From a virus, in the IMG/VR virus record IMGVR_UViG_3300010938_000951, positions 1-64,000 of that record: a stretch of 64,000 bases of DNA; one strand, 5' to 3'. Below the pieces are notes generated by a model. That model worked only from the letters and a program-made list of their open reading frames with translations. It was not told the origin of the DNA and did not search any database. Within the stretch, counting starts at the first letter, position 1; the number at the start of each line of letters is the position of its first letter. Made by a program: the position numbers and the translations under genes. Below, piece after piece: positions 43,420-63,988 of the stretch.

Positions 43420-43420
43420 A

Positions 43421-43486: not shown

Positions 43487-43500
43487 TAACTTTTACTACT

Positions 43501-43674: not shown

Positions 43675-43689
43675 TACCATGAGAAAATT

Positions 43690-44118: not shown

Positions 44119-44132
44119 TATAACTGCTATAC

Positions 44133-44207: not shown

Positions 44208-44216
44208 GCATATAAT

Positions 44217-44362: not shown

Positions 44363-44366
44363 ACAT

Positions 44367-44445
44367 CGGACAAAAGGTAAGCTGGTGGCATCCGGAAGTC
44401 TTATAAACTTCTCATAGGAGGGTTCGATTCCCTCTTGTCCGACCA
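44367..44445 (+). tRNA. tRNA-Ile(TAT)
   Basis: Acceptor CGGACAA/TTGTCCG, ACCA end, anticodon stem GAAGT/ACTTC, loop CTTATAA (TAT, reads AUA), T arm GAGGG-TTCGATT-CCCTC. D arm irregular. Confidence 0.8.
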
Positions 44446-44448
44446 TAT

Positions 44449-44525
44449 GGCACGGTAGTCCAAAGGCAGGAGACACCTGACTTAAAATCAGTTCAGTGTG
44501 GGTTCGAATCCCACCCGTGCTACCA
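44449..44525 (+). tRNA. tRNA-Leu(TAA)
   Basis: Acceptor GGCACGG/CCGTGCT, ACCA end, anticodon stem CTGA/TCAG, loop CTTAAAA (TAA), T arm GTGGG-TTCGAAT-CCCAC. The variable region is short for a Leu tRNA. Confidence 0.78.
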
Positions 44526-44527
44526 AA

Positions 44528-44549
44528 TGATAATCTTGCGCAAGATTAT
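44528..44549 (+). other. Perfect 22-bp palindrome
   Basis: GATAATCTTGC and its complement GCAAGATTATC abut with no spacer. It lies between tRNA-Leu and the permuted tRNA-Phe. No T-run follows, so it may be a protein-binding site or an RNA hairpin. Confidence 0.6.
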
Positions 44550-44582
44550 CAGATAAAGACAGAATGCCCCGAAGGAATACAT

Positions 44583-44670
44583 AGAACAGCAATTGAATGA
44601 AAATCAATAGATTGTAGGTGCGAATCCTACCTCTCCCACCAATAATAAGATATATGGGAGGGAAGCTAAA
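44583..44670 (+). tRNA. Permuted tRNA-Phe(GAA), junction in D loop
   Basis: 3' half 44583-44641: D-stem strand AGC, anticodon arm ATTGA-ATGAAAA-TCAAT (GAA), T arm GTAGG-TGCGAAT-CCTAC, acceptor CTCTCCC, ACCA. A 14-base linker leads to the 5' half 44656-44670: acceptor GGGAGGG, AA, GCT of the D stem. Acceptor pairs 7/7 and D stem 3/3 across the halves. Flanked by the array element: closing stem GACAGA (44558) / TCTGTC (44697), left ATGCCCCGAAGGAATACAT, right TAAAACAAACTTCTTTCAA. Confidence 0.72.
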
Positions 44671-44705
44671 TAAAACAAACTTCTTTCAAATCTTTGTCTG
44701 TCAAT

Positions 44706-44781
44706 GGAGCTTGAGCAAGTGTGGTCATTGCATCGGTCTGAAAAGCCGACAAATCCGGTTCGATCCCGGAAGGCTCCACCA
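44706..44781 (+). tRNA. tRNA-Phe(GAA)
   Basis: Acceptor GGAGCTT/AGGCTCC, ACCA end, D stem GCA/TGC, anticodon stem TCGGT/GCCGA, loop CTGAAAA (GAA), T arm TCCGG-TTCGATC-CCGGA. Confidence 0.85.
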
Positions 44782-44790
44782 ACTACCAAT

Positions 44791-44865
44791 GGTCCTGTAG
44801 CTCAGTGGTAGAGCGCTTGCCTGAAGAGCAGGGCGTCGGGGGTTCAATTCCCTCCGGGACCACCA
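44791..44865 (+). tRNA. tRNA-Phe(GAA), further copy
   Basis: Acceptor GGTCCTG/CGGGACC, ACCA end, D arm GCTC-AGTGGTA-GAGC, anticodon stem CTTGC/GCAGG, loop CTGAAGA (GAA), T arm GGGGG-TTCAATT-CCCTC. Followed immediately by an ATG. Confidence 0.82.
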
Positions 44866-45219
44866 ATGAGAATTGTTCAGAAGCCTTGGGGCCATGAAGA
44901 AATCTGGGCCGAAACTGACAGTTATGTTGGTAAAATCCTAGTAATTAATCCTGGTCACAAACTTTCTCGACAATATCATAATTTCAAAGAAGAAACTTTT
45001 AGAGTACTAGAAGGTATTCTTTATCTTGAAATTGGCAATCCTGGTGATATAGATTTTGCTACTTATACTTTATATGAAGGAAATTCTTTTCATTGCCCGC
45101 CAAAAACAATTCATAGAATGATTTGTTCTACTGGCAATATTCAGGCAGTTAAAGTACTAGAAGTATCGACCAATCATTTGGATGATGTAGTAAGACTAGA
45201 AGATGACTATAAAAGATAA
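44866..45219 (+). CDS. Mannose-6-phosphate isomerase type II-like cupin
   Basis: 117 aa starting at the base after the tRNA CCA. KPWGHEEIWAET, GHKLSRQYHNFKEETFRVLEG and NSFHCPPKTIHRM are the metal-binding blocks of the ManC C-terminal/sugar-phosphate isomerase cupin family. It may modify a nucleotide-sugar or hexose-phosphate; ATG placement suggests translation from a tRNA-processed mRNA. Confidence 0.82.
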   Translation: MRIVQKPWGHEEIWAETDSYVGKILVINPGHKLSRQYHNFKEETFRVLEGILYLEIGNPGDIDFATYTLYEGNSFHCPPKTIHRMICSTGNIQAVKVLEVSTNHLDDVVRLEDDYKR

Positions 45220-45394
45220 AATAGTAGAGTTAGAAATTGAAAGACTTTCTTTATTAGAAGTAGTAAGGCAATTTACAATACATGATTGCGATGCAAGAAT
45301 GTGGTGTGAACTAAATGAATTCTTAATAAAGATTGAAGAAAGAGCAGAAGAAATAAATCGTGCCATAGCTCAGTTGGTTAGAGCGCATGTCTGA
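45203..45394 (+). CDS. Small helical protein whose end overlaps tRNA-Ile
   Basis: 63 aa, starts 17 bases inside the previous gene's end. Charged helix (KIVELEIERLSLLEVV). Its stop codon lies in the anticodon arm of the tRNA at 45359, so the last 12 codons share sequence with the tRNA. Coding status moderate. Confidence 0.5.
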   Translation: MTIKDKIVELEIERLSLLEVVRQFTIHDCDARMWCELNEFLIKIEERAEEINRAIAQLVRAHV

Positions 45395-45435
45395 TACACA
45401 TGAGGTCGCAGGTTCGACTCCCGCTGGCACGACCA
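45359..45435 (+). tRNA. tRNA-Ile(GAT)
   Basis: Acceptor CGTGCCA/TGGCACG, ACCA end, D arm GCTC-AGTTGGTTA-GAGC, anticodon stem CATGT/ACATG, loop CTGATAC (GAT), T stem GCAGG/CCCGC with one mismatch. Confidence 0.88.
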
Positions 45436-45444
45436 AGATAACAT

Positions 45445-45519
45445 GGGATGTTAGTTCAACGGTGAGAACGGAAGTCCGATAAACTTCAGACAATGGTTCA
45501 ACTCCATTACATCCTACCA
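45445..45519 (+). tRNA. tRNA-Ile-like (GAT), C33
   Basis: Acceptor GGGATGT/ACATCCT, ACCA end, D stem GTTC/GAAC, anticodon stem GAAGT/ACTTC, loop CCGATAA. GAT is in place but position 33 is C. T arm AATGG-TTCAACT-CCATT. Confidence 0.68.
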
Positions 45520-45548
45520 CTGAAACAAATGCTCGCAGAGGATTACAT

Positions 45549-45627
45549 CGCATATCCAGCGGGTTACGTGAGTGCGAATCTCACTCTCAGCTCATTATGC
45601 TGAGATCGTCTAGCAGTCTAGGACACC
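45549..45627 (+). tRNA. Permuted tRNA (anticodon ATC, Asp-like)
   Basis: 3' half 45549-45592: CGC-ATATCCA-GCGGG, T arm GTGAG-TGCGAAT-CTCAC, acceptor TCTCAGC and one base; no CCA. A 6-base linker leads to the 5' half 45599-45627: acceptor GCTGAGA, TC, Asp/Glu-type D arm GTCT...GGAC, A, CC. Acceptor pairs 7/7; anticodon stem CC+CGC/GCGGG pairs 5/5; junction between positions 28 and 29, as in the tRNA-Gln at 42430. Flanking element: closing stem TGAAACAA (45521) / TTGTTTCA (45653), left ATGCTCGCAGAGGATTACAT, right TAAAAAATAGTCTTCTCAA. Confidence 0.72.
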
Positions 45628-45672
45628 TAAAAAATAGTCTTCTCAATTCTTGTTGTTTCACAATTATGCCTC

Positions 45673-45863
45673 CTATCATGGCTGGAAACTGATAGCGATA
45701 CCACCAGGCGGTCCCAGAGGGATGCAGCAGGGGAAGTACAAGAGTATCAAACAGAAGGGACGCCTTCTAGCCTGCTCACATGGTTGGAAACTGTGACGCG
45801 GTCTTGGTCGCGATAGACCAAGTAGTAAAACCGCAAGCCTGCCCACATGGTCGGAAACTGTGG
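45673..45863 (+). repeat. Three hairpins with conserved loop TGGYYGGAAAC
   Basis: CTATCA-TGGCTGGAAAC-TGATAG at 45673, TCACA-TGGTTGGAAAC-TGTGA at 45776, and CCACA-TGGTCGGAAAC-TGTGG at 45843. Stems differ but stay paired; the 11-base loop is almost constant. The last two are also preceded by AGCCTGC. The region between them has no ORF. Confidence 0.65.
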
Positions 45864-45867
45864 AAAG

Positions 45868-45943
45868 AATCGTCTAGCTCAATGGTAGAGCTACGTCACT
45901 AGTGACGACGTGGATCTGGGTTCGAATCCCAGGATGATTCCCA
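45868..45943 (+). tRNA. tRNA-Thr(AGT)-like
   Basis: Acceptor AATCGTC/GATGATT, CCCA end, D arm GCTC-AATGGTA-GAGC, anticodon stem CGTCA/CGACG with A.C at 31:39, loop CTAGTGA (AGT), T arm CTGGG-TTCGAAT-CCCAG. A34 in a bacterial-type Thr tRNA is unusual. Confidence 0.72.
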
Positions 45944-45971
45944 GCGAAGCAAATGCCCCGAAGGTTTACAT

Positions 45972-46058
45972 TTGAGAAACTGTATTATCGCAAGATAGTC
46001 GTGGGTTCGAATCCCACATCACCGCAAGGTGATTGGCTGAGTGGTCTAAAGCGACAGT
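45972..46058 (+). tRNA. Permuted class II tRNA (Leu GAG)
   Basis: 3' half 45972-46024: loop TTGAGAA (GAG), stem ACTGT, class II variable arm ATTATC-GCAA-GATAGT, T arm GTGGG-TTCGAAT-CCCAC, acceptor ATCACC. The halves are joined by GCAA. 5' half 46028-46058: acceptor GGTGAT, Leu/Ser-type D arm, stem ACAGT. Acceptor pairs 6/6, anticodon stem 5/5. Flanking element: closing stem GAAGCAA (45946) / TTGCTTC (46091), left ATGCCCCGAAGGTTTACAT, right AACTTTCAAATTTTTTG. CCA not encoded. Confidence 0.72.
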
Positions 46059-46099
46059 GCCGCAAGGCATGCTAACTTTCAAATTTTTTGTTGCTTCAT

Positions 46100-46229
46100 C
46101 TCCCGCTAGTTTAAAACGAAACACCTGTTATAGAGGACGTATACTTCAATCTATGAGGGGTTAGTAGTCCAGAAGAATACCTTCCAGTGAGGAAGGAGAT
46201 GCGAGTGCAAGTCTCGCAAGGGAGACCAA
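46100..46229 (+). tRNA. tRNA-like gene with large interior insertion
   Basis: 3' end is tRNA-like: class II-like hairpin CCTTCC-AGTGA-GGAAGG, T arm GCGAG-TGCAAGT-CTCGC, AAGGGAG, ACCA. Upstream CTCCCGC plus a D-like arm GTTT/GAAAC could be the 5' side (5 of 7 acceptor pairs). About 45 extra bases lie between; no anticodon assigned. May be a pseudo-tRNA. Confidence 0.45.
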
Positions 46230-46232
46230 TTT

Positions 46233-46559
46233 ATGGAAAAGAAAATTCCAACTATGAAGGATCTCAAAGAAGGTCCGCCATTACTCTGTCCAATTTGTGA
46301 CAGACCAAATTATTTTCCATCCGACCATCATATGGTACCAAAGTCTAGGGGCGGTAAAACTACCGAAACTATTTGTGAAGATTGCCATAAAGCAATTCAT
46401 GCGCATTTCACCAATAAAGAATTAGAAGAAACGTATCATACGCCAGAAGCTTTGCTATCTCATGAGGGGTTTGCAAAACAGATTAAATTCCTTTCTAAAC
46501 AGGATCCTGGTGGCCGAACCAAAACGAAAAAGAATAAAGATCGTTTGAGGCGAGAATGA
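46233..46559 (+). CDS. HNH endonuclease
   Basis: 108 aa. CPICDRPNYF, then HHMVPKSRGGKTTETICEDCHKAIHA: the HNH core with two CxxC zinc knuckles and catalytic His. Starts 3 bases after the tRNA-like CCA. A free-standing HNH in a tRNA array fits a homing endonuclease. C-terminus very basic. Confidence 0.88.
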   Translation: MEKKIPTMKDLKEGPPLLCPICDRPNYFPSDHHMVPKSRGGKTTETICEDCHKAIHAHFTNKELEETYHTPEALLSHEGFAKQIKFLSKQDPGGRTKTKKNKDRLRRE

Positions 46560-46825
46560 GTAGGATTATTGAATTAGTAAAAGCTGGCGCCAAGATTCAA
46601 CAAGAAATTGTTGATGAATTAGTAGTTGATGTCTTAAAAGACGTCGAATTACATCACGAAGAACTTGACATAGCTTTGTCGTTAGATTTTGATAAAATAA
46701 AAGATCCAAATGATAAAGATTTAGCCATTTATCTGGCATTGGATGCTATACGTGATGCGAGAGAAACATTATCTATAATGAAGAAGTTATTAAGAGCCAG
46801 CGAGCTTTTAGATCGTATCGGGTGA
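46556..46825 (+). CDS. Small helical protein
   Basis: 89 aa overlapping the HNH stop (ATGA). Acidic helical bundle (ALSLDFDKIKDPNDKD). Not recognised; could be an HNH partner. Confidence 0.6.
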   Translation: MSRIIELVKAGAKIQQEIVDELVVDVLKDVELHHEELDIALSLDFDKIKDPNDKDLAIYLALDAIRDARETLSIMKKLLRASELLDRIG

Positions 46826-46828
46826 TTT

Positions 46829-47020
46829 ATGGAAGAGAAGAAAGATTTTTGTGAAAAGTGTCAAAAAGAAGTTTGGTCGCTGTATTTACATAAACACTGT
46901 CCTGAATGTGACTCAGATCCAAGCCAGCATGAGCTAAGAAATTATGACATGATGTGGCACGAAGGAGACATTCATTGTGGTAAGTGCGGAACATTTGTTA
47001 GATATTATGACGCCGGCTAA
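46829..47020 (+). CDS. Small zinc-binding protein
   Basis: 63 aa, 3 bases after the previous stop. CEKCQKEV, HCPECDSD and HCGKCGTFV give six cysteines and several His, enough for two zinc sites. Unknown function. Confidence 0.68.
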   Translation: MEEKKDFCEKCQKEVWSLYLHKHCPECDSDPSQHELRNYDMMWHEGDIHCGKCGTFVRYYDAG

Positions 47021-47086
47021 TCGTTCGATATATCTATTACAACCTGCGTGAGCCCTAGTGGCCACGGTCGAATTAAAGGTGGTAAT

Positions 47087-47674
47087 ATGAATAAAATTCA
47101 AAGATTGCAAATGAGGGGCGTGAGGCTCACGTCCGAGGCAGACTGGGAGAAAGTTATAATTTCCCCTGAAGAGGTAGAAGAAGGCATTAGGCTCGGTACG
47201 CTGCAAGAGATGGAGTCCGCAAAACTGGGATTAAAAGATCGATCATTCTCCGGAGATGAAGGAGATTCGTTAGCAAGGTCAATCGCAGCCAAACAGTTCG
47301 AATTTGCAATTAGACGATGGGGTGGTGGTACTGCTCGCATTGTGCAAATTAATGAGTTCCATGACTTCCCGGACGTTGGGAAAGTGAATGCTCGATATAC
47401 ATTCAACACTGGTTACGGGATGATTATTACCAACCGTGATCAGGGTAAAGTACCAATGATCTTGGGAACGGGTAAATGTCCTGAGTTTTATTTAATGGGA
47501 TGGTTTATTCCAGATTATGCAAAACAAATTATTTTTAAAGTCCACCAAAAACGCAATGAAGATTGTGAAACCGATTTTGGTTTCTTGCAGGAAATGAAAG
47601 ACCACGAATGTTGTCAGCTTAATATGCAAATGCTTTTTCCTATGTGGTCTTTCAATAAAGAACTACTAAAATGA
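47087..47674 (+). CDS. Hypothetical protein
   Basis: 195 aa from ATG 47087 with AAGGTGG upstream. Soluble; segment GYGMIITNRDQGKVPMILGTG looks like a beta hairpin core. Not recognised. Confidence 0.65.
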   Translation: MNKIQRLQMRGVRLTSEADWEKVIISPEEVEEGIRLGTLQEMESAKLGLKDRSFSGDEGDSLARSIAAKQFEFAIRRWGGGTARIVQINEFHDFPDVGKVNARYTFNTGYGMIITNRDQGKVPMILGTGKCPEFYLMGWFIPDYAKQIIFKVHQKRNEDCETDFGFLQEMKDHECCQLNMQMLFPMWSFNKELLK

Positions 47675-47683
47675 TATAAGTTT

Positions 47684-47790
47684 AGGAAGCAAAACAAAGT
47701 ACCTGCTGTTCAAGGGAAAGTTTTGATGAGGAGAGCCGGAACAGGGCAATCCTAAGTTAGGGGTGGACTCAACATCCAACCGCCGCTTCC
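47684..47790 (+). other. Structured spacer before tRNA-Lys
   Basis: GGAAGC at 47684 pairs with GCTTCC at 47785-47790; inside is GGTGGA-CTCAACA-TCCAACC, a hairpin with a 7-base loop. No ORF. Same closed-spacer style as in the main array. Confidence 0.4.
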
Positions 47791-47796
47791 GCTTAT

Positions 47797-47873
47797 GGGC
47801 TCTTAGTGTTAACGGTAGCACACCTGACTCTTAATCAGGCAAGTCCTCGGTTCGAATCCGGGAGAGCCCACCA
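47797..47873 (+). tRNA. tRNA-Lys(CTT)
   Basis: Acceptor GGGCTCT/AGAGCCC, ACCA end, D stem GTGT/GCAC, anticodon stem CCTGA/TCAGG, loop CTCTTAA (CTT), T arm CTCGG-TTCGAAT-CCGGG. Confidence 0.92.
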
Positions 47874-47874
47874 G

Positions 47875-48114
47875 ATGTATCACAAATGGGAATTCGGGAA
47901 AGGTCCCGCATATAGAATTGGTTTTCAATTCCTACATGTATGGTGGTCATTTACTTCCAAATGTTTTGGAATTAATTTAGGCTCGCGTTATAGAATTTTT
48001 ATTCAGCGCCTTGCTTTTCCAAACTCAAAACCTTATGTTAGGTTTGAGTTTCATCTTCCCAATAAGAAGATGCCAAATCATCCGAAGTGTTACAGTTTTG
48101 AAATGGGTTCGTAG
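47875..48114 (+). CDS. Small hypothetical protein ending inside a tRNA
   Basis: 79 aa from ATG 47875, one base after the tRNA-Lys CCA; its TAG stop lies within the acceptor/D region of the next tRNA-Lys (48105). Basic and aromatic. Fills exactly the space between two tRNAs. Not recognised. Confidence 0.65.
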   Translation: MYHKWEFGKGPAYRIGFQFLHVWWSFTSKCFGINLGSRYRIFIQRLAFPNSKPYVRFEFHLPNKKMPNHPKCYSFEMGS

Positions 48115-48182
48115 TATAATTGGATTATTACCTCTCCCTCTTAAGGAGCACGATGCGGGTTCGAGTCCCGCTGAACCCACCA
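48105..48182 (+). tRNA. tRNA-Lys(CTT), second copy
   Basis: Acceptor GGGTTCG/TGAACCC, ACCA end, anticodon stem CTCC/GGAG, loop CTCTTAA (CTT), T arm GCGGG-TTCGAGT-CCCGC. First 10 bases overlap the preceding CDS. Confidence 0.82.
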
Positions 48183-48195
48183 ATACGAGGTAAGT

Positions 48196-48396
48196 ATGAC
48201 TCGCAATGAAATCAAAGATTTGATCATGGTAATTCTTGGTCAAGCCGATTATGATCTGATGAAAGCATATGATCCAGAAACGGCTGAAGAACCCGAGTAT
48301 GCCGAATCAGAAATGGAAAGATTAATCGATACAGTAGTGGAACATCTCAAAAAGTTAGAAAAGAAAAAGACTAAGAAGGTAAAGAAAAAGAAGTAA
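48196..48396 (+). CDS. Small protein with Lys-rich tail
   Basis: 66 aa. Acidic helical N-terminal part, ending in KKLEKKKTKKVKKKK. Sits between two tRNA-Lys genes and its own tail is a run of Lys codons. Unknown. Confidence 0.6.
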   Translation: MTRNEIKDLIMVILGQADYDLMKAYDPETAEEPEYAESEMERLIDTVVEHLKKLEKKKTKKVKKKK

Positions 48397-48397
48397 T

Positions 48398-48471
48398 GGG
48401 TTTATAATTCAATGGCAGAATAGCGGTCTTTTAAACCGTCCATCAGGGTTCGATTCCCTGTGAACCTACCA
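48398..48471 (+). tRNA. tRNA-Lys(TTT)
   Basis: Acceptor GGGTTTA/TGAACCT, ACCA end, anticodon stem GCGGT/ACCGT, loop CTTTTAA (TTT), T arm CAGGG-TTCGATT-CCCTG. Confidence 0.9.
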
Positions 48472-48472
48472 C

Positions 48473-48949
48473 ATGCATGATATATTAAAAGTCATGCCAG
48501 ATCAAAGTTTCAAAGTTTGTAGTATTTGTGGTGAAGATAAGCATATTCACTTGTTTAATAATAGGGCTCGTAGTCCTGATGGTAAACAAGTATTTTGTCG
48601 TCAATGCGGCAAAGAAAAATCTAGAAAATATTATCGCGACAATCAATCACATCATAAAAGTGTAGTCTATTCTAGAAAGATAGATCATATACAAAAATCA
48701 AAAGAGTTTGTTCTTTCATTTTTAAAGGAACATTCTTGTATAGATTGCGGAGAACGAGATCCTGTTGTTCTGGATTTTGATCATGTTAGAGGCGAGAAAT
48801 ATCGCAATATTTCTCAGATGGTACATAGAGGAAATTCTTTAGAGAAGATTAAATTAGAAATAGAGAAATGTGAAGTACGATGTGCTAATTGTCATCGCAG
48901 AAAAACTGCAAAGGAATTAGAGTATTTTACATATATTATGGGGTCATAG
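48473..48949 (+). CDS. HNH endonuclease with N-terminal zinc ribbon
   Basis: 158 aa, one base after the tRNA-Lys CCA. N-terminal CSICGEDKHI...CRQCGKEK ribbon; C-terminal HNH: CIDCGERDPVVLDFDHVRG...KCEVRCANCHRRKTA. Similar free-standing HNHs home into phage genes. Its last codons and stop form the start of the tRNA at 48940. Confidence 0.88.
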   Translation: MHDILKVMPDQSFKVCSICGEDKHIHLFNNRARSPDGKQVFCRQCGKEKSRKYYRDNQSHHKSVVYSRKIDHIQKSKEFVLSFLKEHSCIDCGERDPVVLDFDHVRGEKYRNISQMVHRGNSLEKIKLEIEKCEVRCANCHRRKTAKELEYFTYIMGS

Positions 48950-49015
48950 TGTTAGTGGTAGCATAGTGGACTTTTAATCCATCGGTCTCGGTTCGATTCC
49001 AGAGTGGCCCTACCA
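48940..49015 (+). tRNA. tRNA-Lys(TTT), second copy
   Basis: Acceptor GGGGTCA/TGGCCCT, ACCA end, anticodon stem GTGGA/TCCAT, loop CTTTTAA (TTT). T stem weak (CTCGG/CCAGA). First 10 bases overlap the HNH gene end. Confidence 0.78.
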
Positions 49016-49036
49016 AGCATAATTAGTAATAGTAAT

Positions 49037-50056
49037 ATGAGAATTATAATGAACCTCATTTTACTTATTGTCTTAATAATATTTATTCCATTTCATGAAT
49101 TAGCTTGTATTAATTCAAATATATCTCCAACAATACAGCAACCTATTCCTTCTAGAATAGAAAAATCTAAAGTGGTTCTAATTACTTTGGATGGTGTAAG
49201 ATGGCAAGAGATTTTCAACGGAACTGATCCTCTTCTCTATCATGGAAAAAAGATATCAGCCCGCGACTTACTTCCCAATATTTATTATCAGTTTGTTGAT
49301 AGGGGCATGGTGGTTGGTAAGGATTCAACATTTGTAGCTACTGGTCCGAACCATATTTCTTTGCCGGGGTATCTTGAAATTATGAGAGGGCATCCATCTT
49401 CTGATTGTCAAGATAATGATTGTGAGCCCCGTCTGCAAGAAAATACTATCGCTGACTTATTTGACAAGTCAGCAATTTTTGCTTCTTGGGATACTATTAG
49501 AAAAACAGTTGGTAAAAATACAGATAAGTTTGTAGTTAACTGTGGCCGTAATTTTCGTTCTACTGGCTGGAAACAAGCCGAACTAGATGATAATCAAACT
49601 TTTCCAGAAGTATGGGGAGATCCAATTTATAGACCAGACGATCTCACAGAGAAAGCTGCTATAGATTATTTACAGTATTATAGCCCAGATTTCTTTTGGG
49701 TTTCTCTGGGGGATACTGATGAGTGGGCTCATTATGGAGACTATGATAAATATTTAGAATCTTTACAACAGGCTGATAAGTTTATAGGTATGGTTGTGGA
49801 GATGGTGAAATCTGGCGAAGATGGTCAAGATTTTACATTTATAGTTACAGCAGATCATGGTCGTGGATTACAATGGCAATCACATGGCTGGGATAGAGAA
49901 TCCGCCAGAGATTGGGTGATGATGGCGGGAAGAAAGATACCGGCACAAGGTTTCGTATCTTATCCTACCAAAAAATCTCTCTCAAATATTTTTCCTACCG
50001 TTAAGCATTTAGTAACTGGAGTTCATACTAAGAATTCTTTATTATCTAAGGATTGA
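49037..50056 (+). CDS. Alkaline-phosphatase-superfamily phosphodiesterase, exported
   Basis: 339 aa from ATG 49037 (ATG 49049 also possible). N-terminal signal with FHELAC, a possible lipobox. VVLITLDGVRWQEIF supplies the metal Asp, GPNHISLPGYLE the nucleophile region, LGDTDEWAHYGDYDKYL and VTADHGRG the second metal site: the order of nucleotide pyrophosphatase/phosphodiesterase-type enzymes. Likely periplasmic; substrate unknown. Confidence 0.8.
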   Translation: MRIIMNLILLIVLIIFIPFHELACINSNISPTIQQPIPSRIEKSKVVLITLDGVRWQEIFNGTDPLLYHGKKISARDLLPNIYYQFVDRGMVVGKDSTFVATGPNHISLPGYLEIMRGHPSSDCQDNDCEPRLQENTIADLFDKSAIFASWDTIRKTVGKNTDKFVVNCGRNFRSTGWKQAELDDNQTFPEVWGDPIYRPDDLTEKAAIDYLQYYSPDFFWVSLGDTDEWAHYGDYDKYLESLQQADKFIGMVVEMVKSGEDGQDFTFIVTADHGRGLQWQSHGWDRESARDWVMMAGRKIPAQGFVSYPTKKSLSNIFPTVKHLVTGVHTKNSLLSKD

Positions 50057-50057
50057 G

Positions 50058-50606
50058 ATGAAGACTACTATTATCAATTTGTATGGTGGACCTGGTGCAG
50101 GAAAATCCACCTCAGCCTCATATTTGTATTATCTGTTAAAATGTCAACAAGAAAACGTTGAATTAGTTCGTGAATACGTTAAGAATTGGGCATGGGAAAA
50201 CCGACCATTCGGAGTGTATGATGAACTATATTTTCTAGGTAAACAAGTAAGACATGAAAGTATGCTTTTTGGTAAAGTCAAATACATTGTTACTGATGCT
50301 CCGGTGTATATGACAGCCTACTATGCTGATCTTTATTGTAGCAAAGTATTTGCCCAAGGAATTGAGAAAGCTGCTACTGCCTTTTATCAACAAGCTAAAG
50401 ATGATGGACATAATCATGTTCATGTTTATTTAAAACGCTTGCGTCCTTATCAAGCCGAAGGGCGCTATCAATCTGAGCAGGAAGCCTTGTCAGTTGATGA
50501 CGGTGTGCTTAAGATGTTGGCAAGACTGGATGTTCCAGTTATTCATGCCGCTCCTGATGAAGAAGATTTAAAAAGAGTTTTAGAGGATATTCGCAAAGGA
50601 CAATAA
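50058..50606 (+). CDS. P-loop NTPase, AAA_28/NadR-like
   Basis: 182 aa, one base after the previous stop. IINLYGGPGAGKSTSASYL is Walker A; IVTDAPVYMTAYY looks like the DxP segment of nucleoside/NMN kinases. A phage nucleoside or ribosylnicotinamide kinase role is possible but not proven. Confidence 0.72.
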   Translation: MKTTIINLYGGPGAGKSTSASYLYYLLKCQQENVELVREYVKNWAWENRPFGVYDELYFLGKQVRHESMLFGKVKYIVTDAPVYMTAYYADLYCSKVFAQGIEKAATAFYQQAKDDGHNHVHVYLKRLRPYQAEGRYQSEQEALSVDDGVLKMLARLDVPVIHAAPDEEDLKRVLEDIRKGQ

Positions 50607-50607
50607 T

Positions 50608-51021
50608 ATGGTTGAAACTTTCAAAGACCTTGTCGGTGAGGATGTAAAAACTCCTGAAGACATTGATGCTAAACTTAAAGAAAAGCTTGGCATTGGACTT
50701 CAAGAAATGTCATATGCGCTTTGCGATTCATTAAGGCAAAGAGCCGAAGAGGTAGCAGAAGATTGCTATAGTGTTGCTCCTTATGGAGACTATAGTAAAA
50801 TGATTGAAGATCCAGAAGGGGTAGCGAAATTTTTCAGAGATGAAGCTTCAAAGCCCGAGCATTGGAAATTAGAATATCTAGAAGTTCGAAAGAAAGGCGA
50901 TCAGCTCATCGAATTTGTTTTTACTAACTCAGCAGTAGATGATGGCGACATTCTCAAAGGTTTTGTTTTCGTAGGGTTTAGTGGAACCATACGACATGCT
51001 TTTTGTCAGGTTCACACATGA
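50608..51021 (+). CDS. Hypothetical protein
   Basis: 137 aa, one base after the P-loop gene. Soluble, acidic. No motif recognised. Overlaps an ATG at 51018 (ATGA) that leads into the next frame. Confidence 0.65.
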   Translation: MVETFKDLVGEDVKTPEDIDAKLKEKLGIGLQEMSYALCDSLRQRAEEVAEDCYSVAPYGDYSKMIEDPEGVAKFFRDEASKPEHWKLEYLEVRKKGDQLIEFVFTNSAVDDGDILKGFVFVGFSGTIRHAFCQVHT

Positions 51022-51030
51022 AAAAAATCA

Positions 51031-51246
51031 TTGACCATTGAAGAGAGGGTGGATATCCTACTTCGTGAAGGAGTAGATAAACCCAAGAAGTGGGCGGCTG
51101 TTCATGGATATGATGAACCTACTTGGGGAACAAACGATTCTCATGGTTGGGCCAAAGAATATAAAAAGCTTCGTGAACATCATCTTGAAGAAACTAAATT
51201 TCTTTTTGAGGTGATTGGGGAATTAGTAAAGAGAATTAACAAATGA
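51031..51246 (+). CDS. Hypothetical protein, start unclear (possible A7 frameshift)
   Basis: 71 aa if started at TTG 51031. A better-placed ATG at 51018 (ATGA overlap) runs into a stop after seven codons. Skipping one A in the AAAAAAA run at 51021-51027 would join that ATG to this frame (MKKSLTIEERV). A homopolymer indel, a slippery start or a genuine TTG start are all possible. Confidence 0.5.
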   Translation: MTIEERVDILLREGVDKPKKWAAVHGYDEPTWGTNDSHGWAKEYKKLREHHLEETKFLFEVIGELVKRINK

Positions 51247-51473
51247 AAAAGATTCTTTTATTATGTTTAGTTTTGTTTGCTTGTGATGAAGAGACTCGTA
51301 AGCAATGGAATCCAACTCCACAAGAGAGTGCGCAAGGAATTCGTTATGTTAAAGATAATCGCACTGGATTATGCTTTGTTTACAATAACATAGGCATGTC
51401 TGCTCAAGGTGGTGGAGGCGATGTATATACTAATGTACCTTGTACTCCAGAAGTAGAGAAGCTAATAAAGTGA
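51243..51473 (+). CDS. Small lipoprotein
   Basis: 76 aa, ATGA overlap. MKKILLLCLVLFACDEETRK is a lipoprotein signal with lipobox LFAC. The mature part has two more cysteines and a Gly-rich loop. Possibly a surface or lysis accessory protein. Confidence 0.72.
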   Translation: MKKILLLCLVLFACDEETRKQWNPTPQESAQGIRYVKDNRTGLCFVYNNIGMSAQGGGGDVYTNVPCTPEVEKLIK

Positions 51474-51521
51474 TATATAATAAGTAAGTTGTAAGTCCAA
51501 CTTTTTAAATGGAGAAACAAT

Positions 51522-51623
51522 ATGCTTTCTACTTTGACTTTTGTTATGGTAGCTTGTTTATTCGCAAACCTCGCCTATGAAAAGGGCGGAAAGCTTGTCG
51601 AATTAGTTAAGAGCAAGTTCTAA
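51522..51623 (+). CDS. Membrane miniprotein
   Basis: 33 aa, ATG 51522 to TAA 51623, with TGGAGAAA upstream at good spacing. LSTLTFVMVACLFANLAY is a membrane helix, followed by a basic tail. Ribosome site and position after a lipoprotein gene make it credible. Confidence 0.6.
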   Translation: MLSTLTFVMVACLFANLAYEKGGKLVELVKSKF

Positions 51624-51630
51624 TACCTTA

Positions 51631-51654
51631 ATAGAAGGTGGACTTGATTGGGCG
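51631..51654 (+). other. Hairpin after the miniprotein gene
   Basis: AGAAGG and CCTTCT arms, part of an 8-bp stem with a 16-base loop, lie about 30 bases upstream of the next promoter. No T-run follows, so terminator function is doubtful. Confidence 0.35.
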
Positions 51655-51685
51655 CCTTCTATCTAATTAAAAAAATTTGACAGGC

Positions 51686-51713
51686 TTGACGTCTGGTAAT
51701 AAAGTGTTATAAT
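51686..51713 (+). promoter_or_regulatory. Promoter, TTGACG-N16-TATAAT
   Basis: TTGACG 51686-51691 and a consensus TATAAT 51708-51713 with 16-base spacer, 12 bases before tRNA-Ala. Strongest promoter match in the window; drives the second tRNA group. Confidence 0.85.
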
Positions 51714-51725
51714 AGTAAGCGTTAT

Positions 51726-51801
51726 GGGGCTGTAGCTCAGTTGGGAGAGCGTCTCGTTTGCACCGAGAAGGTCAGGGGTTTGAATCCCCTCAGCTCCACC
51801 A
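51726..51801 (+). tRNA. tRNA-Ala(TGC)
   Basis: Acceptor GGGGCTG/CAGCTCC, with G3 facing U70 as expected for Ala, ACCA end, anticodon stem TCTCG/CGAGA, loop TTTGCAC (TGC), T arm AGGGG-TTTGAAT-CCCCT. Confidence 0.95.
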
Positions 51802-51809
51802 TAACTCAC

Positions 51810-51857
51810 TGGCCGGATACGAAACACAATTCGCGAATGTTTCATTATGTTATCCGG
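51810..51857 (+). other. Structured spacer
   Basis: CCGGATA/TATCCGG encloses GAAACA/TGTTTC, a long hairpin between the two tRNA-Ala genes. No ORF in this spacer. Confidence 0.45.
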
Positions 51858-51939
51858 TGTCAGATTGAGTAAAAGTTTGGCGATGTACAACTCGCTACAA
51901 GTCCTGGACATGACTTGGATACGGAAACTGTCCGGTAAT

Positions 51940-52015
51940 GGGGCCTTAGCTCAATTGGGAGAGCGTCACGCTGGCAGTGTGAAGGTCGCGGGTTCGACCC
52001 CCGCAGGCTCCACCA
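51940..52015 (+). tRNA. tRNA-Ala(GGC)
   Basis: Acceptor GGGGCCT/AGGCTCC with G3.U70, ACCA end, anticodon stem TCACG/TGTGA, loop CTGGCAG (GGC), T arm GCGGG-TTCGACC-CCCGC. Confidence 0.93.
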
Positions 52016-52018
52016 TAT

Positions 52019-52117
52019 ATCCCGCAATTCGATATAATCTCTGCTGGCTGTCTTATCGCGGCTGAACATAGGTTGGCACGGACAGAGAACAAGGTGCAAT
52101 TCCTTGGCGGGATACCA
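52019..52117 (+). tRNA. tRNA-like gene with ~39-nt anticodon loop
   Basis: Acceptor ATCCCGC/GCGGGAT (7/7), ACCA end, T arm CAAGG-TGCAATT-CCTTG (5/5), anticodon stem CTCTG/CAGAG. The loop is ~39 bases and the D arm is vestigial. If 32 bases were removed as in the tRNA-fMet at 53304 (4+3 split) the loop would be CTGGGGA (GGG, Pro), but this is a guess. Confidence 0.55.
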
Positions 52118-52122
52118 AATTA

Positions 52123-52323
52123 ATGAGTAAGATTGATTGGTCAAAACACGAGATAGACATGTGGGGCTACTATTGTGAGTCCTGGTGTAAAGCTTGTGAA
52201 AAAGATCGTCGTGTTTGTGAGAAGTGCGGCCTAAACTATGGGGCTGGCCAATGGCACAGTATAGAGCAATGTGCTAAGGTTATTGCCGATGAAAAGGCAA
52301 AACAACTCTCTTTTCCATTCTAA
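52123..52323 (+). CDS. Small zinc-ribbon protein
   Basis: 66 aa starting 5 bases after the tRNA-like CCA. CESWCKACEKDRRVCEKCGLNYG contains five cysteines in a ribbon-like pattern. Unknown. Confidence 0.65.
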   Translation: MSKIDWSKHEIDMWGYYCESWCKACEKDRRVCEKCGLNYGAGQWHSIEQCAKVIADEKAKQLSFPF

Positions 52324-52505
52324 TTTTCGAATTGTTGATATAAACTACGCAACTGATTGTATAGACTTATCCGCATGGATCGCTAGTTAAACTGGCGTTA
52401 CAATTCACCTCTTGGAGAAGGGAGGGCTCATCATGAGCGGTAAAAGTAGTAAAGGCATTAGAGACTAATAAGAAAGAAACGTTTTCCCAACGTTTATCAA
52501 TCCAG
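52324..52505 (+). other. Intergenic region with hairpins
   Basis: About 180 bases. A hairpin CGCTAGT-TAA-ACTGGCG near 52380 and AAACGT-TTTCCCA-ACGTTT just before the next gene. An 11-codon ATG frame (52434) has a good AAGGGAGGG site, but is too short to call. Confidence 0.35.
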
Positions 52506-52859
52506 ATGGCCAAGGTCATTAGAACTTGGGCATTCATCATAGGCCAACTAGTTTTTGTGGTTGGCTGGTTTAGTGGACATCACTTCTTCCCACAGCATTT
52601 ACCTTTCGAGGTATTACAAATCTTACTTCTCACTGAAGGTTGCTGTATTGGATCAGTTTTCTTGATGAATCAGCATCGCGAGCAATCATTGGATCGTCGC
52701 ATTGCAATAAATGATTACATTGTTAATTGTCAGATGAGAAATGATGTGAAAGAATTACTCAAAGACGCCGAAAAGAAAAATAATTTTTGGTGTGTAGGTT
52801 GCGGGGAACCGCGATATAAATGTGCTTGCGAAGAGCAAACGCAACTTCGTCAAAGCTAA
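52506..52859 (+). CDS. DUF1003-like membrane protein
   Basis: 117 aa. Two membrane helices (about 7-26 and 36-58) and then LMNQHREQSLDRRIAINDYIVN, which resembles the DUF1003 signature of small two-helix membrane proteins. C-terminal CVGCGEPRYKCAC could bind zinc. Function of the family unknown. Confidence 0.65.
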   Translation: MAKVIRTWAFIIGQLVFVVGWFSGHHFFPQHLPFEVLQILLLTEGCCIGSVFLMNQHREQSLDRRIAINDYIVNCQMRNDVKELLKDAEKKNNFWCVGCGEPRYKCACEEQTQLRQS

Positions 52860-52895
52860 AGTTTCTATGAATATTCAAGTATCATAGATACTCAT

Positions 52896-52969
52896 TCAGG
52901 GATCGTCTAATGGTAGGACCGCGGCCTTTGACTCCGCAGATACAGGTTCGAATCCTGAGCCCTGAGCCA
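52896..52969 (+). tRNA. tRNA-Gln(TTG)
   Basis: Acceptor TCAGGGA/GCCCTGA (A7.G66 mismatch), GCCA end, D arm GTCT-AATGGTA-GGAC, anticodon loop CTTTGAC (TTG), C31.U39 mismatch, T arm ACAGG-TTCGAAT-CCTGA. Confidence 0.88.
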
Positions 52970-52985
52970 GGTCAGTTAAGTATAC

Positions 52986-53059
52986 TGGAGCATCGTCTAA
53001 CGGCAGGACAACGGACTCTGACCCCGTTTATCTAGGTTCGAATCCTAGTGCTCCAGCCA
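52986..53059 (+). tRNA. tRNA-Gln(CTG)
   Basis: Acceptor TGGAGCA/TGCTCCA, GCCA end, D arm GTCT-AACGGCA-GGAC, anticodon stem ACGGA/CCCGT with A31.C39, loop CTCTGAC (CTG), T arm CTAGG-TTCGAAT-CCTAG. Confidence 0.9.
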
Positions 53060-53063
53060 GTAT

Positions 53064-53137
53064 TCTCCGATCGTCTAATGGTAGGACGGGTCGCTCTGAA
53101 CGATCAAATCGAGGTTCGAATCCTCAGCGGAGAACCA
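53064..53137 (+). tRNA. tRNA-Gln(CTG), second copy
   Basis: Acceptor TCTCCGA/GCGGAGA (A7.G66 mismatch), ACCA end, anticodon stem GGTCG/CGATC, loop CTCTGAA (CTG), T stem GAGG/CCTC. Confidence 0.88.
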
Positions 53138-55781: not shown

Positions 55782-56819
55782 ATGAAGAAAGTCTTAAAGC
55801 TATTTAGCGTCGCACTGGCGAGCATTGGTTTATTAGCACTACCTTCTATAGCTCAAGCCCAAGAGGTAACTTTGAGAGCGGAACCTGGCGTAGCCATTCC
55901 GCTCACTGATCCTCAGGCTCAACGCTTTGGAGTAGGTGGGGCTGTTGCGGTAAAGCCAGAGGTCACCCTATTCCACTATTTAGGAGTTGGTCCAAGTTTA
56001 CAGTGGATTGGTCTTCCATCCAATGTTTCTGGTGTTGATGCTGGTACTGCTACTCGATTGGGTGCTTTTGCACGTGTTAAGCGTCCACATGATGAAACCA
56101 ATACTGGTCGTGGTTTCTCCGCAGCATCCCCTTGGGTTGATGCTGATTTAGGTTATGTTCGTACTGATGGTCTTGATCGTTTAGGCGCCTCTGTTGCTGC
56201 CGGTGTTCAGGTTCCTACTAGTGACTCACGTTGGTTATGGGTTGGCCCATTTGCTCGCTATGATCTTGTTAATCAAGAAGATGGTAAACGCTTGGTTAAC
56301 ACCAACAGTGCTAAAACTTTGATTCTTGGTTTGAGCTTTGAAATTGGGGCGCCTGCTAAAAAGAAAGTAGAGCCACCACCTCCTGCGCCTAAGCCAGTCC
56401 CGCCTCCAGTTGTGGAAGAGCCAAAGAAGCCCGAACCACCTCCAGTTGTTGAGGAAACTGTTGTTAAGTTCAAGCCACGCATCCAGTTTGCTTGGGATTC
56501 TGCAGTGCTTGATGAGGCACAACAAACTGTGTTAAAAGATGTTGTCAAATCACTTTTGGCCGATAAATCTTACAATGTTAAGATTGAAGGTCATGCTTCT
56601 TCTGAAGGTCAGGTTGAGCACAATAACAAATTGTCTCAGCGTAGAGCTGATTCGGTGCGCAATTTCCTCATTGCCAATGGTGTTGATGGAAGCCGCTTGA
56701 CTGCTACTGGGTTTGGTTCCAGAGTACCAGTCGCCGATAACAAAACTGAGGCTGGACGTATCCAGAACCGCAGAGTCGAATTCGACGTATCATTTGTAGT
56801 GGTGAAAGAGAGTAAGTAA
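55782..56819 (+). CDS. OmpA-family outer-membrane protein
   Basis: 345 aa. Signal peptide (cleavage near AQA-QE, residue ~27), an N-terminal region that could be a beta barrel, a Pro/Glu linker (PPPAPKPVPPPVVEEP) and a C-terminal OmpA domain (IEGHASSEGQVEHNNKLSQ, RRADSVRNFLIANGV, NRRVEFDV) that binds peptidoglycan. Phage-carried OmpA proteins could alter the host surface or block other phages. Confidence 0.88.
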   Translation: MKKVLKLFSVALASIGLLALPSIAQAQEVTLRAEPGVAIPLTDPQAQRFGVGGAVAVKPEVTLFHYLGVGPSLQWIGLPSNVSGVDAGTATRLGAFARVKRPHDETNTGRGFSAASPWVDADLGYVRTDGLDRLGASVAAGVQVPTSDSRWLWVGPFARYDLVNQEDGKRLVNTNSAKTLILGLSFEIGAPAKKKVEPPPPAPKPVPPPVVEEPKKPEPPPVVEETVVKFKPRIQFAWDSAVLDEAQQTVLKDVVKSLLADKSYNVKIEGHASSEGQVEHNNKLSQRRADSVRNFLIANGVDGSRLTATGFGSRVPVADNKTEAGRIQNRRVEFDVSFVVVKESK

Positions 56820-57825: not shown

Positions 57826-57839
57826 GATGGGTGAAAGTT

Positions 57840-58169
57840 ATGAGCTTACCTTGGTCACGAGATATGCAATTAGATCCTGGCACATTTGGAGGGTCTCCAG
57901 CATGTCATGTATTAGTTGATATGATGAACAAAAATGTGATTCCTGTTCAGGAAAAACATCGAGTTCTATCATTCATTAGCGGTACTATTTTGCATTTCAA
58001 GGCCATCTCTGCCATCAAAGAAAGAGGTATAAGGGCACGGGTTATGGTGCTTTTGAAAAATGATCTGTTTTCCAGAATAGATCAAATGCCATATCCAGCT
58101 CATTTCAACTCTTATCTGAAGAACGTAGTAAATCACCACTTCAGGCGATACTTAAAAGAAGTAGTCTAG
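57840..58169 (+). CDS. Hypothetical protein just upstream of RNase P RNA
   Basis: 109 aa from ATG 57840 (GTG 57831 is the longer option). With the promoter's -10 ending at 57825 the mRNA is almost leaderless. Not recognised. Its last codons form the 5' strand of the RNase P RNA P1 helix, so translation and RNA maturation would compete. Confidence 0.6.
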   Translation: MSLPWSRDMQLDPGTFGGSPACHVLVDMMNKNVIPVQEKHRVLSFISGTILHFKAISAIKERGIRARVMVLLKNDLFSRIDQMPYPAHFNSYLKNVVNHHFRRYLKEVV

Positions 58170-58492
58170 ACAATCGCTCTGCAAGGAGAGGAAAGTCGGA
58201 GCTACATAGGACAGTCTGCTGGCTAACGGCCAGGCGTAGTAATACGACGGAAAGTGCAACAGAAAATAAACCGCCCGCAAGGGTAAGGGTGAAATGGTGA
58301 GGTAAGAGCTTACCGCATGTTTGGCGACAAATATGGCAAGGCAAACCCCAGATGTAGCAAGCTAAACAGAGAGTGACTTGTCCGGTCAATACTCTCGGGT
58401 TAGTGCTGGAGCCGTCAAGTAATTGTCGGCCAAGATTAATGATTGTCTCGATTTATAGACAGAACTCCGCTTATAGGGCTACTTCTTTTAAG
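58151..58492 (+). ncRNA. rnpB: RNase P RNA (bacterial type A)
   Basis: 342 bases. P1 CTTAAAAGAAGTAG / CTACTTCTTTTAAG and P2 AGACAATC / GATTGTCT pair across the gene. Universal core elements in order: GAGGAAAGTC, ACATAGGACAG, AACGGCCAGGCG, AAAGTGCAACAGAAA, AAACCGCC, GGTAAGGGTGAAA, AGAGCTTACCGC, CAGAACTCCGCTTATAG. It is the catalytic subunit that removes 5' leaders from pre-tRNA. No protein subunit gene is in the window; the host's could be used. Phage-encoded RNase P RNA is very unusual. Confidence 0.95.
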
Positions 58493-58510
58493 TTCTTTTA
58501 AGGAATTATT

Positions 58511-59029
58511 ATGCAGAAAAAGAAAGTTATTGCCATAGCTCCCAAAGTGGTATCACAATGGGAAGCCGCCCGCCATGAATATAAAAAACTAGAAGATCAA
58601 ATTTTAGATCGTATTGATTATATTCTCAATACTTGGTTTTCTATTTATGGAGCTAAGTTAGAATATTGGTATTTTGATGGGGCGGCTGAAGGTGAGGTGG
58701 GCGATCTTCATCGATTTATGAATACAGATTCTATCTGGAGTTTTTACGTTGAAACTAAAAATTACCCAGATAATGATATGGTATTTATCGATAAAGACGG
58801 CGATGAATATAGTTGGCAATCAGAAATTCCCACTCGTTGGCTTTATGATGATTCCTTTGAGGAAGAAATTATAAAAGGTAAAGCCGAATATGAGAGACGA
58901 GAAGAGGAGCGTCTTGCAAAGAAAAAGCAAAAGACGGCTAATAAAAAAGCTCAAGACGAAAAACTCGTAGAAGAAGCTAAGAAAAAACTTTCAAAAGAAG
59001 AGTTAGCAGCTCTTCGTAGAACATTATAA
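58511..59029 (+). CDS. Hypothetical protein with charged C-terminal helix
   Basis: 172 aa, AAGGAATTATT upstream. Soluble N-terminal domain (EYKKLEDQILDRIDYILN) and a Lys/Glu coiled-coil end. No relation to RnpA seen. Unknown. Confidence 0.65.
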   Translation: MQKKKVIAIAPKVVSQWEAARHEYKKLEDQILDRIDYILNTWFSIYGAKLEYWYFDGAAEGEVGDLHRFMNTDSIWSFYVETKNYPDNDMVFIDKDGDEYSWQSEIPTRWLYDDSFEEEIIKGKAEYERREEERLAKKKQKTANKKAQDEKLVEEAKKKLSKEELAALRRTL

Positions 59030-59040
59030 AAGGAAAAACA

Positions 59041-59733
59041 ATGGCAGATAAAGTTACCACCGTTAGCGCAAAAGGTTGCGTTGTAACAGATTTTGATACG
59101 GCTACATTTGCACTCTCATTTAATGAGTTTGCTCCTAAAGCCAAAGACGCAAAGCTGAAGCTAAAGAAAGGTGCAGCTAAGATTACAGCGGCCCTTGATG
59201 ATCTCAAGAAACGTGGGTTGGAGTTTTTAACCAACAACTATCGCACTAATATTACAGTGCAACCAAATTATGTTTATGACCGTTCGTCCGGCCAAAACAG
59301 AATGGAAGGACAGAAGGCAACTTACTCTGTAACGTTCCAAACTCCTACACTAGAAATGGTTAGTGAAGCATACGATCTACTTTCTGAATTGGAAGTGAAT
59401 GAACTTTCAATTAATTCTCCTGCTTATTCTGTCAGGTCCGAAGCGCAATTTAAGCAACAAGCATTGGAAGATGCTTGGAAGGTAGCTCAAGTTTTGTTTG
59501 CTAATCAGTGCAAGGTTCTTGGGTTTGATGAAACTAAATTCTCTGTTGATAGCTGGCAGGTTAATTATAGTGGCCATGACCATGGTGGATTTGCTAAGGG
59601 TCGTAGCTATTCAAACTCTGTGCTAGCGGCATCAGCTTCGGCTGATTATGGTGATGAAGCCATTGAACTAAATGCTGGCCGTGCTATCATTGAAGTAGTT
59701 CTGACTGTCGATTACGTTCGTACCGGATCATGA
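59041..59733 (+). CDS. SIMPL (DUF541)-like protein
   Basis: 230 aa after AAAGGAAAAAC. VTTVSAKGCVVTDFDTATFALSF at the start, a long central helix and TYSVTFQTPTLEMVSEAYDLL resemble the SIMPL/DUF541 fold. Unlike most members it has no signal peptide. Role unknown. Overlaps the RNA ligase gene by 4 bases. Confidence 0.6.
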   Translation: MADKVTTVSAKGCVVTDFDTATFALSFNEFAPKAKDAKLKLKKGAAKITAALDDLKKRGLEFLTNNYRTNITVQPNYVYDRSSGQNRMEGQKATYSVTFQTPTLEMVSEAYDLLSELEVNELSINSPAYSVRSEAQFKQQALEDAWKVAQVLFANQCKVLGFDETKFSVDSWQVNYSGHDHGGFAKGRSYSNSVLAASASADYGDEAIELNAGRAIIEVVLTVDYVRTGS

Positions 59734-60401
59734 AAATTAAGCTAGCCTATCCTAAAATTCCTGATACTTTAGACTGTCCACTCAAGCAATGTATTGCTTT
59801 TGAAAAATTGGATGGAACTAATTTGCATTGGGTTTGGAATAGGGAAAAAGGCTGGCATGCTTTTGGTACTCGCCGAGATAGATTTAATCTAGATGAACAA
59901 GGAATTGCTTCTTTCAACCAAGCACATCCCGGACTGGAGGAAGCAATTTCCTTGTTTAGAAAATCGTATGAGCATCTCGCTGAGTATCCACTTAAACATA
60001 AATATGGTCCAATATCAGAATCCACGGGTGACGTAATTCTATTTACAGAGTTCCTTGGAGATAAATCTTTTGCTGGTTCTCACCAAAAAGGCGACCCCAA
60101 AAGATTAGTATTATTTGATGTAATGACTGATAAAGGAATAACTCCACCAGATCAGTTTGTGATTGATTTTGGACAGTTTGATGATATTCCGGGATATTAT
60201 ATTCCACAAATTGTTTTTAGTGGAAAGTTTTCAGGACAATTATTTGTAGATGTTAGGAAAAACAAGTTCAAAGTAAACGAGGGCGTGGTTGTCAAAGGTA
60301 TGTTTGCCGGGCAAGTTTACATGGCCAAGATTAAGACGACTGACTATTTAGAGCGCCTAAAGAAAGAATTTAAAAACGATTGGAAAAATTATTGGGAATG
60401 A
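59730..60401 (+). CDS. RNA ligase (nucleotidyltransferase superfamily)
   Basis: 223 aa. Motif I FEKLDGTN with the adenylated Lys (K26), motif III-like LFTEFLG (105-110), motif IV EGVVVKG (174-180) and motif V MAKIKT (188-193) give the ATP-dependent ligase core. EKxDGTN and small size fit Rnl2/T4 RnlB-like RNA ligases, which seal nicks in double-stranded RNA or broken tRNA. Co-located with RNase P RNA; may mend cleaved, interrupted or permuted tRNAs. Confidence 0.88.
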   Translation: MKIKLAYPKIPDTLDCPLKQCIAFEKLDGTNLHWVWNREKGWHAFGTRRDRFNLDEQGIASFNQAHPGLEEAISLFRKSYEHLAEYPLKHKYGPISESTGDVILFTEFLGDKSFAGSHQKGDPKRLVLFDVMTDKGITPPDQFVIDFGQFDDIPGYYIPQIVFSGKFSGQLFVDVRKNKFKVNEGVVVKGMFAGQVYMAKIKTTDYLERLKKEFKNDWKNYWE

Positions 60402-63712: not shown

Positions 63713-63788
63713 GTCGCAGTACCCAATCGGATAAGGGAGCTGTCTGCAAAACAGCCATTAGCAAGTTCGACTCTTGCCTGCGACTCCA
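63713..63788 (+). tRNA. tRNA-Cys(GCA)
   Basis: Acceptor GTCGCAG/CTGCGAC, UCCA end, anticodon stem GCTGT/ACAGC, loop CTGCAAA (GCA), T arm GCAAG-TTCGACT-CTTGC. D stem CCC/GGG. Confidence 0.92.
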
Positions 63789-63798
63789 CACCTAATAC

Positions 63799-63888
63799 GG
63801 AAGGGTGCGTGAGTGGCTGAAACGGCTACCCTGGAAAGGTAGTGATCTCGCAAGGGGTCCGAGGGTTCGAATCCCTCCTCTTCCGCCA
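63799..63888 (+). tRNA. tRNA-Ser(GGA)
   Basis: Acceptor GGAAGGG/CTCTTCC, GCCA end, anticodon stem CTACC/GGTAG, loop CTGGAAA (GGA), class II variable arm, T arm GAGGG-TTCGAAT-CCCTC. Confidence 0.94.
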
Positions 63889-63898
63889 AATATAATAT

Positions 63899-63988
63899 GG
63901 AAACTTGGCCGAGCGGTTTAAGGCGCTAGTCTTGAAAACTAGAGATCCTGAAAGGGGTCCGGGGGTTCGAATCCCTCAGTTTCCGCCA
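63899..63988 (+). tRNA. tRNA-Ser(TGA)
   Basis: Acceptor GGAAACT/AGTTTCC, GCCA end, anticodon stem CTAGT/ACTAG, loop CTTGAAA (TGA), class II variable arm with TGAA loop, T arm GGGGG-TTCGAAT-CCCTC. Confidence 0.95.

Follow-up and report, generated by a model that had tools for sequence, protein, structure and literature searches.

Gene neighborhood of the RNase P RNA

The window analyzed here is a stretch of 64,000 nucleotides (positions 1 to 64,000 of IMG/VR virus record IMGVR_UViG_3300010938_000951, 266,899 bases in all), and it carries a class A RNase P RNA (RPR), the only copy in the record (Table 1). The gene order around it is OmpA, Cys-rich, 112-aa ORF, RPR, SIMPL, RNA ligase, p115, p110 and 450-aa, with the final 12 bases of the 112-aa ORF overlapping the 5' end of the RPR. 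Neither the 112-aa ORF nor the 172-aa ORF has a Pfam match, and no PDB entry matched the sequence of the RNA ligase. This order is partly or wholly kept in nine viral records (L010, L008, L020, L013, L034, L017, L028, L312 and L313) that derive from different metagenomes. The upstream unit may end at 57743-57774, where a hairpin and a U-tract are present. A sigma-70 scan around the RPR gave a promoter-like count no higher than in shuffled sequences, and no promoter is claimed.

Table 1. Positions of the RPR, its structural elements and other features in the window
Feature	Position	Strand	Evidence or remark
Class A RNase P RNA (RPR)	58158..58489	+	RF00010, 279.9 bits, E 2.3e-90, full model
Extended P1, 5' strand CTTAAAAGAAGTAG	58151..58164	+	Direct sequence reading
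Extended P1, 3' strand CTACTTCTTTTAAG	58480..58493	+	Direct sequence reading
P4 5' strand AAG-U-CGGAG, U bulged	58193..58201	+	Pairing and covariation
P4 3' strand CUCCGCUU	58465..58472	+	Pairing and covariation
P6 pseudoknot 5' strand GGACA, partner L17	58209..58213	+	Compensatory changes in phage relatives
P6 pseudoknot 3' strand UGUCC in L17	58380..58384 (+/- a base or two)	+	Compensatory changes
L15 GGGUU region	58396..58400 (+/- a base or two)	+	GGUU invariant in 10 phage RPRs
OmpA-family protein	55782..56819	+	PF00691 E 5.9e-22; syntenic
112-aa ORF, function unassigned	57831..58169	+	Homologues upstream of RPR in L008, L010, L020, L312
172-aa ORF, function unassigned	58511..59029	+	Starts ~20-21 bases past RPR; homologue in L312
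SIMPL (DUF541) protein	59041..59733	+	PF04402 E 1.3e-16; homologues near RPR in several relatives
RNA ligase	59730..60401	+	PF09414 E 8e-7, phrog_548 E 2e-10; near RPR in 7 relatives
tRNA array, presumed substrates	41203..53137	+	31 tRNAs in window
Further tRNA cluster (Cys, Ser, Ser)	63713..63988	+	tRNA search
AATGC...TTACAT element starts	41410, 41958, 42411, 44298, 44564, 45529, 45953, 53145		

Fold and covariation of the phage RPR

RNase P is an RNA enzyme that trims transfer RNAs in nearly all bacteria. Alignment of the RPR to the class A covariance model RF00010 was complete (model positions 1-367) and scored far above the gathering threshold of 100 bits, with the catalytic-core nucleotides in place, in agreement with the preliminary description of the element as a type A RNase P RNA that is full-length and encoded by the phage. 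The two extended P1 strands are exact reverse complements and can form a perfect 14-bp outward extension of the helix, which would bring the limits of the RPR to 58151-58493 and makes the earlier limits of 58151-58492 reasonable as well. The type A helices were found, including P4, in which all eight pairs form around a bulged U of the U69 type, and the P6 pseudoknot, whose long-range pairing with L17 is diagnostic of type A. The RPR also has the L15 GGU, which in type A RPRs is the known binding site for the tRNA 3' CCA.

Compared with bacterial class A RPRs (rnpB, E. coli M1 RNA, RF00010), the phage RNA has the same main helices, bulged-U P4, L17-mediated P6 pseudoknot, L15 GGU and J5/15 GCAAG, and its identity to E. 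coli rnpB is ~66% across 80% of its length. It differs in being encoded by a phage, in a record where no rnpA was found, and in two swapped but fully compensated P4 pairs (CCGGG/CCCGG in E. coli, CGGAG/CUCCG here). The swap was rejected as a phage hallmark: it also occurs in Acidimicrobiia and some other bacteria, and its 5' strand is present in at least 120 stretches of bacterial sequence, the majority of them from Acidimicrobiia. Nothing in the phage RPR was found to depart from an ordinary type A core.

To analyze covariation, the type A structure was imposed on 10 phage RPR sequences. In this set 95.1% of pair cells were paired and 61 of the 98 pairs had changed on both sides, a level of covariation reached by none of 500 shuffles. 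Relatedness can inflate the shuffle statistic; in a control that preserves relatedness, in which the partners were slid, pairing fell to 30-40%. For P4, 98.8% of cells were paired and five of the eight pairs had changed on both sides, the 5' strand occurring as CCGGG, CGGAG, CGGAA, CGGCG, CUGGG or CCGAA with matching 3' strands. The 5' strand of P6 likewise varied with compensating partners (GGACA, GGGCA, GGAUA, CAACA, ACACA, GAGUA, AAGCA), forming five of five pairs in eight phages and four of five in G012 and G065, where one terminal pair each is mismatched. The P4 bulge U and the L15 GGUU were invariant in all ten. The covariation supports a standard type A ribozyme fold, and together with the invariant U bulge and L15 GGU motif it indicates that selection maintains the RNA as a ribozyme, with catalysis itself a prediction.

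Phage origin and inheritance

The record is a phage: it encodes a terminase large subunit (TerL, phrog_675), a portal protein (phrog_16240), RIIA, a phage-type NAMPT and an NAD-dependent DNA ligase. A pattern scan of IMG/VR returned 45 records with a candidate RPR, 44 of them confirmed with RF00010, a number that is not a phage count because some are probably host sequence. The closest relatives of the RPR are in viral records, with 72-90% identity over most of the length, exceeding every bacterial sequence compared. Identity to the window RPR is 90% for G009 (359 kb), 80% for G007 (481 kb) and 72-77% for the others, and TerL identity to the window phage is 91% for G009, 87% for G007 and 79% for G019. 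Across six phages the ranks of RPR and TerL identity correlate with a Spearman coefficient of 0.83, calculated from 15 non-independent pairs. In the RPR tree, 12 viral RPRs form a clade free of bacteria (support 0.93). The tree was built with a loosened 3' motif, as the strict motif dropped sister phages, several of which read ACAGGA at CR-V, and misplaced the window RPR.

These data bear on whether the RPR stems from contaminating host DNA, an assembly error or a host rnpB that was captured recently and does not function. Host rnpB is indeed caught when viral collections are searched by similarity, in host-flanked prophage contigs such as Acinetobacter phage MD-2021a. Here, however, the record itself carries phage genes, some or all of the neighboring genes recur in nine further viral records, and the covariation is strong; synteny, the virus-only clade and the concordance with TerL rule out stray host DNA and misassembly, and we regard this explanation as a whole as extremely improbable. 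A separate RPR-like match was observed on L354, Legionella adelaidensis 'plasmid 23' (52,685 bases), which may be a mislabeled piece of chromosome or a plasmid-borne rnpB.

Among clade members of at least 260 kb, six of nine have the RPR. The other three large relatives, G066, G067 and G068, have no detectable RPR, so some of the clade can do without the RNA. Nine viral records, not all of them confirmed phages, make up another virus-only clade in the RPR tree (support 0.99); they include L032, L026, L021 and L025 (252-369 kb), and two of the nine have a different terminase, Terminase_6N, on the same record. This clade points to more than one acquisition of an RPR. In L032, a gene with an RF-1 release-factor domain lies near the RPR.

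tRNAs and other translation genes

The record encodes a tmRNA, EF-G and 65 tRNAs that cover all 20 amino acids, and CCA is encoded in 63 of the 65. Phages with an RPR have 65, 57, 52 and 56 tRNAs with CCA encoded in 91-98%, against 11, 28 and 37 tRNAs with CCA encoded in 18%, 61% and 81% for clade members lacking it, in a comparison of seven possibly incomplete records (G007 and G068 covered to 400 kb; G064 and G065 left out of the counts) with relatedness uncontrolled.

Several other translation-related features were observed. A Thg1-like tRNA 5'-end guanylyltransferase/polymerase gene (PF04446 E 3.9e-17) at G000 172197-172994 (L052:12197-12994) adjoins tRNA-Thr genes upstream of the tmRNA. 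Two amber tRNAs with anticodon CUA lie at G000 176544-176617 and 176628-176700 (L052), and TAG is the stop codon of six of the 255 ORFs of at least 120 aa, a combination that suggests suppression or avoidance of UAG. A microbial-type PARG at 36920-37780 of the window and an ADP-ribosylglycohydrolase at L047:4468-5397 are possible counters to ADP-ribosylation.

Tetraloop-joined elements in the tRNA array

The preliminary description had proposed that unusual tRNAs with tetraloop-joined ends need a tailored ribozyme, a proposal that the array does not bear out. Bacterial Y RNAs are tRNA mimics, and the clearest tetraloop-joined element (~45985-46085) matches the Y RNA family YrlA (RF02553) at 26.3 bits, below gathering, as does, weakly, a sister element in G007. 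About eight repeated AATGC...TTACAT elements of ~100-150 nt lie among the tRNAs; most are closed by a stem (GAAACAA/TTGTTTC, for example), and one matches YrlA weakly. Upstream of them, at 33424-35115, lies a Ro60-like gene (vWA_Ro60 E 9e-15, TROVE E 4e-10), and the set has the appearance of an array of phage Y RNAs. In the sister phages G007 (L448 ~5950) and G019 (L413 ~12700), tRNA-like elements were observed whose acceptor stem is closed by a GNRA tetraloop (GAAA, GCAA), and likewise at ~46020 of the window.

Given the YrlA match, the Ro60-like protein and comparable elements in the RPR-less G068, the tetraloop-joined elements are more likely Y-RNA-like candidates than the reason for the RPR. 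The idea that permuted tRNAs are special substrates of RNase P was not supported, as Y-RNA-like elements and a Ro60-like protein fit better. Comparison with bacterial Y RNAs and their Ro60/Rsr partners accounts for at least one tetraloop-joined array element, at scores below gathering, and this likeness applies to the neighbors in the array, not to the RPR.

The same elements raise the question, a variant of the tailored-ribozyme proposal, of whether the main substrate of the RPR is something different from ordinary tRNAs, e.g. the Y-RNA-like array elements with closed acceptors, since such elements and GNRA-closed tRNA mimics occur in the tRNA arrays of three RPR-bearing phages. We consider this quite unlikely: G068, though it lacks an RPR, shares this kind of motif, with several AATGC...TTACAT-type matches and one candidate permuted element; the RPR has kept the standard L15 GGU for CCA ends, which an acceptor closed by a GNRA loop does not expose; and its core is of the ordinary type.

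Protein partner and proposed function

A search for the RNase P protein RnpA (PF00825) was positive in 10 known bacteria but found no match in the window phage, nor in any other of the 76 distinct viral records searched, although a highly diverged RnpA could escape the profile. With no RnpA subunit found in the same genome, a holoenzyme would need RnpA supplied by the host. The earlier suggestion that the phage RNA replaces host RNase P during infection is possible, but with no PF00825 match the host protein at least would have to be borrowed.

The lack of any PF00825 match in every RPR-bearing record also fits a host-independent RNase P, consisting of the RPR with an unrecognized phage-encoded cofactor, e.g. 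the adjacent 112-aa or 172-aa ORF, or of RNA alone. The 112-aa ORF overlaps the RPR and, lacking any Pfam match, is conserved beside it in four relatives, but it was not detected in L013, L017, L028, L034 and L313, where some loci are short. Type A RPRs are established to be active without protein, but this requires non-physiological Mg2+, and overall a host-independent enzyme appears unlikely. Alternatively, the RPR could be chiefly a decoy: by titrating host RnpA or pre-tRNAs, it would stop the host from maturing its tRNAs. Some phages do sequester host factors by RNA, and RnpA is precisely the partner that this phage does not encode. A decoy, however, would have no need of an intact P4 with its bulge, P6 or L15 GGU, all of which are kept with compensatory changes, and a phage with 65 tRNAs itself needs RNase P, making this role very unlikely.

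We consider it probable that the RNA is functional and that a huge-phage lineage has passed on this class A RPR by vertical inheritance; together with host RnpA it would mature the phage tRNAs and tmRNA; expression, binding and cleavage are the predicted parts of this explanation. The RPR would be transcribed with its neighbors during infection, then excised, and would fold as a standard type A ribozyme. Since the phages seem to lack an RnpA gene, it would pair with the host protein to form a hybrid holoenzyme. Judging from the available substrates and the conserved motif, the hybrid enzyme would cut the 5' leaders from ~65 phage tRNAs and the tmRNA, with the L15 GGU binding the encoded CCA present on nearly all phage tRNAs. 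The RPR would act alongside the phage EF-G, tmRNA, RNA ligase and Thg1-like tRNA 5'-end polymerase, and the benefit to the phage may be that tRNA maturation is sustained after expression of host rnpB drops.

A broader proposal, to which we give even chances, is that several huge-phage lineages independently captured an RPR and kept it for long, and that it works as a hybrid or host-independent enzyme in a near-complete viral tRNA production line composed of the RPR, RNA ligase, Thg1-like protein, CCA-encoded tRNAs for 20 amino acids, EF-G and tmRNA.

Occurrence and significance

RNase P RNA is generally seen as a ribozyme of cells, and a nearly universal one. We found no report of a virus-encoded RPR in the open-access full texts searched, and none in the jumbo-phage reviews and the huge-phage survey that were checked directly. 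Among the matches examined in the isolate phages of INPHARED there was no clear RPR of the phage's own: one match lay on a prophage contig with host genes (coaD, rpsL, rpsG), one was an annotated host rnpB and two were on unannotated fecal contigs. The view of a phage RPR as exceptional thus stands for the open-access literature and the isolates examined, but it is not unique, as it recurs in the huge-phage clade. The tRNA finders tRNAscan-SE and ARAGORN do not detect RPRs. The huge-phage survey sought RNAs with these two programs and described up to 67 tRNAs, tmRNA, EF-G and tRNA ligation genes (Al-Shayeb et al. 2020, PMC7162821), a set of many tRNAs, tmRNA, EF-G and tRNA ligation genes that the phage described here shares; ribonuclease P, the RNA of which we report, is not named in the main text of that study.

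Phage annotation restricted to tRNA and tmRNA finders overlooks catalytic RNAs. The finding opens to test how viruses carrying 50-65 tRNAs mature them, whether a foreign RPR can use host RnpA in vivo, and the compensatory drift of the highly conserved P4 helix in phages.
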